Made by a program: the position numbers and the translations under genes. Positions 11,671-11,990 of a stretch of DNA of 64,000 nucleotides are shown here, piece after piece (position 1 is the first letter of the stretch; each line of letters begins with the position of its first letter). Origin of the DNA: Dyella dinghuensis (GTDB lineage: Bacteria > Pseudomonadota > Gammaproteobacteria > Xanthomonadales > Rhodanobacteraceae); NCBI RefSeq assembly GCF_003977615.1, contig NZ_RYZR01000003.1, forward strand, positions 682,001-746,000, given 5' to 3'. The notes under the pieces were generated by a model, which saw nothing but the letters and a program-made list of their open reading frames with translations, was not told the origin of the DNA and did not search any database.

Positions 11671-11990
11671 TGAGCAAGCTTAACAGCGCCCGGCTTAGGG
11701 ATGCTCTGATGCATTCTGCGCAGGCGTCACCGGCTCTATCCGTTCGCAGACCGCAGGACCATCGGCGAAGGCAGACTGGCTGTCTGTCAAGACGATGATC
11801 CGAAGGTATGCGGACGGATAGAGCCGGCCCCAACGCGTTGAATTTGAGTGATGGGGTGATATCCAGAAGGCTCGCAGGCTGCGCCGCACGGCTTGGCAAG
11901 ACAGCCAGTCTTCCCGGCGCCGCGCAACACACCCTGCGAGCCTTCTGGATATCATGCCGCCTGCGCAGAATGCATCAGAGCATCCCTAGA
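11671..11990. repeat. Intergenic paired-hairpin element with 30-bp terminal inverted repeats (11696-11988)
   Basis: This gap between amiC and mutL holds no credible gene. A perfect 30-bp inverted repeat (11696-11725 against 11959-11988, beginning TAGGGATGCTCTGATG) bounds two independent hairpins. Hairpin 1 has outer arms 11730-11743/11814-11827. Hairpin 2 has outer arms 11857-11878/11933-11954. Each hairpin is centred on the same 13-mer, AGACTGGCTGTCT, at 11773-11785 and, in inverted orientation, at 11899-11911. Between outer arm and centre, hairpin 1 shows many further paired bases; hairpin 2 shows fewer. The outer arms of the two hairpins share no sequence, so pairing is kept while sequence is not. 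The left end is 25 bp from the mutL ATG and the right end 2 bp from the amiC stop. Confidence 0.85.

Follow-up and report, generated by a model that had tools for sequence, protein, structure and literature searches.

A repeat between amiC and mutL of Dyella dinghuensis, best read as an IS5-type MITE with a four-way-junction fold and a possible gene-start role

What is the 287-bp element that lies between amiC and mutL in Dyella dinghuensis, by what route might it have arrived there, and what might it do for the genes beside it? The element occupies positions 11699-11985 of the window (the whole 64,000-nt stretch of DNA that was analysed), with GGATG...CATCC ends as read and counted from the sequence, and both flanking genes—amiC (Amidase_3 + LysM) and mutL—are on the minus strand. 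The element's CATCC end is 5 nt away from the amiC stop codon, its GGATG end 28 nt away from the mutL start codon, and it is flanked by two copies of a YTAR target site, TTAG on the left (11695-11698) and CTAG on the right (11986-11989, 1 nt from the amiC stop codon), which are not identical to each other. Terminal arms of 34 nt (11696-11729 and 11955-11988) are 97% complementary and enclose hairpin 1 (11730-11827, own sense plus; arms 11730-11764 and 11793-11827, 35 nt, 83% complementary) and hairpin 2 (11857-11954, own sense minus; arms 11857-11892 and 11919-11954, 36 nt, 86% complementary), the latter being the first hairpin that a transcript running from amiC into mutL would meet. The perfect part of the terminal arm is 30 long in the real sequence, and a perfect 12-mer inverted pair appeared in 287 of 2000 base shuffles of a 501-bp stretch. 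The two hairpins have a common centre (11770-11785, inverted copy at 11899-11914), with a 13-mer falling by base count at the midpoint of each. This anatomy bears out a sequence-only reading of the locus, which had described a perfect 30-bp inverted repeat around two hairpins centred on one 13-mer in opposite orientation, placed between co-directional genes and containing no transposase frame (the longest mechanical ORF in the element alone is 86 aa).

The same reading had treated the hairpins as two separate structures, and here it needs correction, as a small middle stem makes the whole a four-way junction. Folding of the copies joined four helices without unpaired junction bases: the outer stem P1, hairpin 1 (P2), the middle stem P3 (11828-11856, with an AT-rich loop, CCCC at 11828-11831 pairing with GGGG at 11853-11856) and hairpin 2 (P4). 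The left arm of P1 (11699-11729) opens with 11-12 bases, GGATGCTCTGAT, identical to the terminal inverted repeat that PF01609 insertion sequences carry, and beyond these it varies among copies with pairing retained; the right arm (11955-11985) finishes in ATCAGAGCATCC. Both hairpins are capped in their own sense, on opposite strands, by AGAC-TGGCY-GTCT, and the shared 13-mer is better described as a stem of 4 bp capped by a 5-nt loop than as a plain centre: the hairpin 1 apex AGACTGGCTGTCT (11773-11785, plus strand) has a TGGCT loop, and the inverted copy in hairpin 2 (11899-11911, minus strand) shows AGCCA on the plus strand. Among the apex loops tabulated in 85 copies, TGGCC/GGCCA was commonest. 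When the consensus of hairpin 1 was aligned with inverted hairpin 2, the score was 50, compared with a shuffled mean of 27 (sd 6.7) and a best of 55 in 500 shuffles.

The four-way junction is kept across copies by paired changes. Copies were collected by searching with either the window element or a single apex pattern, which biases the set toward similar copies (300 profile hits in the fetched loci, 114 covering the core, 86 distinct, 85 used for structure), and counts from it are of copies or cells rather than of independent events. In a hand-picked set of 40 copies, 97.4% of cells were paired, compared with 84.5% after shuffling and 33-37% in slid structures, while double-sided changes affected 74/107 pairs (40 in shuffles) and 518 cells were changed on both sides (123 in shuffles). 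A separate structure prediction gave 102 pairs, 73 of them with a double change, and in P1 alone, 98.7% paired, 25/30 pairs had double changes. One core is surrounded by at least three sequence types of P1 (GGATGCTCTGATC..CTGCGYAGG, GGATGCTCTGATC..CACGTACCCG and GGCAACGCTGATCAAG..GTCGTCA), and a 205-nt core occurs in 15/86 copies, P3 being reduced to a tiny-looped CCC/GGG stem in the short-core copies that were read (e.g., L006, L030, L047). Stem covariation in a structured repeat family, as had been proposed, was thus recovered in strength; the further proposal that the two loops kiss is less well supported: the loop-loop helix (helix 6) is paired in 91.5% of cells, with just one of its five pairs showing a double change, two showing one-sided variation and two departing only by unpaired cells. 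The variable loop bases were associated at p = 0.027 in 66/85 copies, the 19 copies with other loops being excluded and the copies not being independent, and the complementarity of the loops arises partly because the two hairpins have opposite orientation; kissing is therefore weakly supported.

Element matches were present in 22/61 genomes—15/16 of the genus, 7/21 of other genera of the family and 0/24 of other families—and in none of the plasmids and phages searched. The window genome has six full copies that are 82-100% identical to the window copy, and a seventh with a like core but a different outer stem (L007/L064). Records with the apex pattern came from Dyella, Rhodanobacter, Frateuria, Mizugakiibacter and Lysobacterales or Lysobacteraceae bins (among the matches listed, 80/116 loci). 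The sole exception among the matches listed was a bin named Candidatus Eremiobacteraeota (L093, CAJCJD010000239.1), which looks misnamed, since its flanks are 100% identical to those of L027 from the window's genus. Among the literature matches listed, no such repeat in Dyella or Rhodanobacter appeared in the titles and opening lines of abstracts.

These dispersed copies refute a one-off rearrangement, and empty sites are common. An amiC match was found in 15/16 genus genomes, and the amiC-mutL junction lacked the element in 12 of these 15, being occupied in the window genome, in G009 (worn copy L187) and in G010 (worn single-hairpin copy L186). A copy with the GGCAACGCTGA end type (L181) lies before mutL at a different point of the same intergenic stretch, and some element-free junctions contain other short repeats, two of them (L198, L199) palindromic and of the GTAGGTTGGG type. 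At thyA the element was present in 2/16 genomes and absent from 14 (120 nt examined); at sdaA it abuts the start codon in the window genome, lies further upstream in G013 and is missing from 14. Two sdaA intergenic copies in two genomes (L003 and L127) have opposite orientation and different insertion points. We also observed copies with altered architecture: in L048, L186, L237 and L241, from three genomes, a hairpin apex is replaced or extended by a small module, GCACGCGGGGA - hairpin - TTGAGGAGCGAGGAAGGC or a near form; in L238, L240 and L242, REP-like GTAGGCTGGGATG...CATCCCAGCCTAC repeats are nested in the element, with the remaining stems still paired; and five short derivatives (L231-L235, 108-151 bp between ends) keep the outer stem intact with hairpins lost or shortened, and look like separate deletions, as their breakpoints differ. 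In G012, nine contigs (C1, C2, C6, C7, C27, C38, C39, C43, C46) carry the end motif 37-109 nt from the contig start (three starts were read), as if the assembly had broken within long palindromes.

We turn to the ends and the target. In its outer 11-12 bp and its YTAR flanks the element agrees with insertion sequences of relatives that have a PF01609 (DDE_Tnp_1) transposase. These insertion sequences of the same bacterial family, together with their MITEs, are the closest known systems, alike in the end GGATGCTCTGA(T/A) and in the YTAR target; the insertion sequences have TTAG, CTAG or CTAA at the equivalent place. The PF01609-gene elements sharing the repeat's end are ~1.15-1.2 kb long. One of them reads TTAG-GGATGCTCTGAAC...ATCAGAGCATCC-CTAG (L253, with a stop within its PF01609 match) and another TTAG-GGATGCTCTGAAC...ATCAGAGCATCC-TTAG (L358, without one), while two found by similarity to the L253 protein (L297 and L298; 69%, no stops) read CTAA-GGATGCTCTGAT...ATCAGAGCATCC-CTAA from the sequence. 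TTAG/CTAG flanks recur in L251, whose right end is partly altered, TTAG stands at both flanks of L321 as read from the sequence, and the shorter remnants L261 and L268 have TTAG on both flanks, the latter starting with GAATG. Elements in G032 and G116 have GGATGCTCTGAT at both ends, and those in G003, G005 and G158 have GGATGCTCTGA followed by A or T. The likeness extends to the outer 11-12 bp only, with no counterpart of the four-way junction in the insertion-sequence end stretches read.

Among the 70/86 copies with both ends called, flanking 4-mers were identical in 17, while 2000 shuffles averaged 5.5 and never exceeded 13. TTAA/TTAA flanks occurred in 12/26 copies of one end type, and the CATCC end type had identical 4-mers in only 4/44 copies under an automatic end call; the terminal base of the element tracks the target (both flanks CTAG, or both TTAA), which is what duplication of 4 bp would lead one to expect. 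PF01609 matches occurred in 10/16 genus genomes, and five of the six without them have element copies. At E <= 1e-40 nothing in the window genome matched the L253 transposase, and no PF01609 match turned up there either, so its copies seem to be stranded. A partner for the GGCAACGCTGA end type was looked for around PF01609 matches in 20 genomes, 5 of which had any, without success, and the fetched loci gave no convincing inverted end pairs of this type, 24 loose pairs being judged chance. Because its outer 11-12 bp and flanks match PF01609 insertion sequences—a group that we take to be the IS5 family, with YTAR as the IS5 target—the best reading of the element is an IS5-type MITE: it has terminal inverted repeats in common with an autonomous element, a 4-bp YTAR duplication in a share of its copies, and the short, dispersed, transposase-less form with empty sites expected of the MITE-like element that the sequence-only reading had suspected. 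We classify it as a new family of IS5-type MITEs whose fold is unusual.

Copies of the element also have a characteristic position before genes. An ATG lies 0-4 nt past the hairpin-1 end in 17/86 copies, compared with 5/86 at the hairpin-2 end (p = 0.011), and the excess is confined to the very end, since ATGs in the 5-29 nt bins number 32 at the hairpin-1 end and 47 at the hairpin-2 end. Gene context was counted for 61/66 tabulated copies, those with no gene call over the element, using gene calls from a home-made codon score. In co-directional gaps the hairpin-1 end points toward the downstream start in 28/38 copies (p = 0.005; 26/36, p = 0.011, after removal of two orthologue twins), and convergent contexts account for 6/61 copies compared with 25/122 control gaps (p = 0.09). 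Genes starting <=6 nt from the element include thyA, dnaX, dnaQ and folK, and among the products of genes behind the hairpin-1 end are RluD, L-serine ammonia-lyase, RNase PH, RapZ, thymidylate synthase, DnaQ, FolK, a PBP1A-family protein, MprF, DnaX, a cyclo-ligase and MutL. A family was assigned at E <= 1e-8 to 23/30 downstream proteins and none to the other 7, with superoxide dismutase, Kup and a few other assignments falling under the curated cut-off. A replication/folate regulon (thyA, folK, 5-formyltetrahydrofolate cyclo-ligase, dnaX, dnaQ, mutL) was considered and rejected, as other downstream genes do not fit, among them those for RluD, L-serine ammonia-lyase, RNase PH, Aat, RapZ, MprF, superoxide dismutase, SpeA, a Kup-like transporter and AsnS.

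At both thyA and sdaA, the element lies between the start codon and a promoter-like motif kept in element-free relatives: thyA sites without it have GCGTAAACT or a close form 6-7 nt 5' of the ATG, and GCGTAGAAT occurs at each of the 15 sdaA sites outside the window genome. The outward end of P1 reads GCGYAGAAT in many copies, and a promoter score built on sigma-70 weights was higher at the hairpin-1 end than at the hairpin-2 end in 66/86 copies, with a small difference in means (3.91 vs. 3.32; shuffles ~1.4). The commonest promoter-like sites were CAGACA-18-YAGAAT (16) and CAGACA-17-GATACT (11), then CAGAGA-17-GATACT (9), with another register, GTGACA/G-18-GAGCAT, best in at least 12/86 copies. 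In the window copy, the family pattern places a candidate -10 (CAGAAT, 11713-11718, minus strand) and a weak candidate -35 (CGGATA, 11737-11742, minus strand) in an outward promoter toward mutL, a weak CGGATA-18-CAGAAT site, and a consensus scan of this copy returned no promoter and no terminator. Judging from sequence and position, the element is most likely a mobile insulator/promoter leader, which is our best-supported guess, and it may serve as a portable gene-start element.

The main alternative is that the element is a purely selfish IS5-type MITE with no gene function, its arms kept complementary by template switching or gene conversion and its place in front of genes being simply what selection tolerates. 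Much in the outer stem agrees with such a history: double changes of transversion type equal or outnumber transitions in P1 (187 vs. 121 cells in the inner part, 87 vs. 79 at the tip; cells are inherited and not independent), and mismatches are few (103/2610 cells) with G-T and A-C deviations similar (34 and 43), as expected of DNA copying between arms. Between the orthologous thyA copies L021 and L043, 7 pairs have double Watson-Crick changes, one of them A-T -> C-G, and 4 have single changes or are broken, and for L022/L046 the figures are 7 and 8, four pairs in this comparison having been added by hand; gene conversion with other copies is a possible source of these double changes. The hairpins are unlike the outer stem, with transitions exceeding transversions among double changes in both hairpin 1 (189 vs. 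93) and hairpin 2 (160 vs. 80), and with G-T far exceeding A-C among hairpin 1 deviations (232 vs. 22, 142 of the 232 G-T coming from two pairs whose most frequent state is G-T). In hairpin 2 the balance is reversed (A-C 61 vs. G-T 17), so that G-T is in excess when the opposite strand is read. By these counts, wobble in the own-sense reading is tolerated in both hairpins, and P1 has no preference. Copying between arms should moreover erase near-invariant unpaired and G-T positions at the apex, yet these persist (G-T in 83/85 copies at one pair), and the orientation and start-codon bias of the copies also speaks against pure selfishness, which we therefore consider unlikely, if a serious contender. 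Our reading is that a DNA process keeps P1 symmetric, and that the hairpins are maintained through selection acting on single strands, each according to its own sense.

Could the fold instead be the selected function, in a cis-regulatory or trans-acting structured RNA spread by transposon ends? The strong covariation, the conserved apex AGACTGGCYGTCT and the own-sense G-T excess (32 vs. 10 pair columns by hand count, p = 0.0009, the columns not being independent) would all suit an RNA, but the wobble preferences of hairpins 1 and 2 are opposite on one strand, so that no single transcript accounts for both. The named downstream genes have no common pathway and some copies miss a hairpin; Rfam, for its part, gave only one tRNA in the window and, within the element, five miRNA scores far below threshold with none above a curated one. 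We regard this explanation as improbable, behind the selfish one.

Two inverted hairpins between genes also recall REP/BIME elements, described in the excerpted text of PMC3733652 as 20-40 bp palindromes with a tagged end, and PF01797 (Y1) matches occurred in 13/16 genus genomes. Single-stranded movement by a RAYT (Y1) transposase is very improbable all the same, and RAYT as a required partner was rejected, because G006, G011 and G013 carry copies but no PF01797 match, and the ends and target fit PF01609 elements instead. An IS630-type MITE with a TA target, like the Correia elements, which are IS630-type MITEs, would explain the TA at the centre of the YTAR flank but has next to no chance of being right, since an IS630 partner was rejected on the finding of PF13358 in only 1/16 genus genomes (G008), the one without an element match, and the terminal base goes with the 4-bp target. 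In proposed action, the Correia (CREE/nemis) elements of Neisseria are nonetheless the most similar system, being small mobile repeats 5' of genes with promoters at their ends and paired ends that are RNase III substrates (excerpts of PMC2649163); they measure 69-157 bp (PMC2649163) and have TA at their termini (PMC2229807, in excerpt), whereas the Dyella element has 287 bp, other ends, two extra hairpins and base-paired arm divergence. The Caulobacter CIR repeats (PMC2229807, section 7) likewise have two long arms with a linker and, in a terminal loop, an exposed conserved motif, but are ~110 bp long, have no 5'-3' closing stem, carry a GANTC motif and are of unclear mobility; the Dyella element differs in closing stem, length and motif, with no GANTC in the apex 13-mer across the loops of 85 copies.

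The explanation that we favour as a whole, and hold to be probable by a modest degree, is that of an IS5-type MITE mobilised in trans, folding into a four-way junction and acting after insertion as an insulator and leader. A PF01609 transposase, to judge from the kinship of ends and target, would recognise GGATGCTCTGAT at both ends together with a YTAR target and move the element in trans, and the two oppositely oriented hairpins, with the middle and outer stems, close into the junction that paired changes maintain across copies. A transcript from the upstream gene would first meet the outer stem and the hairpin in its own sense, where it would likely be stopped or cut by RNase III, and the hairpin-1 end, given its sequence and its position before start codons, could restart transcription toward the next gene, from a putative promoter whose -10 (YAGAAT or GATACT) belongs to the outer stem and whose -35 (xxGACA) lies in the base of hairpin 1. 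More tentatively, and at less than an even chance, we propose a mobile gene-start cassette: transposon ends would bring the element before genes, the junction would insulate, and the hairpin-1 end would supply promoter and short leader even for thyA, dnaX and folK, which we take to be essential genes, with the arms drifting freely and the conserved apex motif being read in each hairpin's own sense.

The element unites features that are generally met separately: a transposon-borne repeat on the one hand and covariation of stems, here very strong, on the other. Because P1 behaves like DNA copied between arms and the hairpins more like a selected single strand, it also warns that covariation in mobile repeats need not imply RNA function. 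If the leader role is true, housekeeping genes of several Dyella species would have swapped their start regions for a mobile one.
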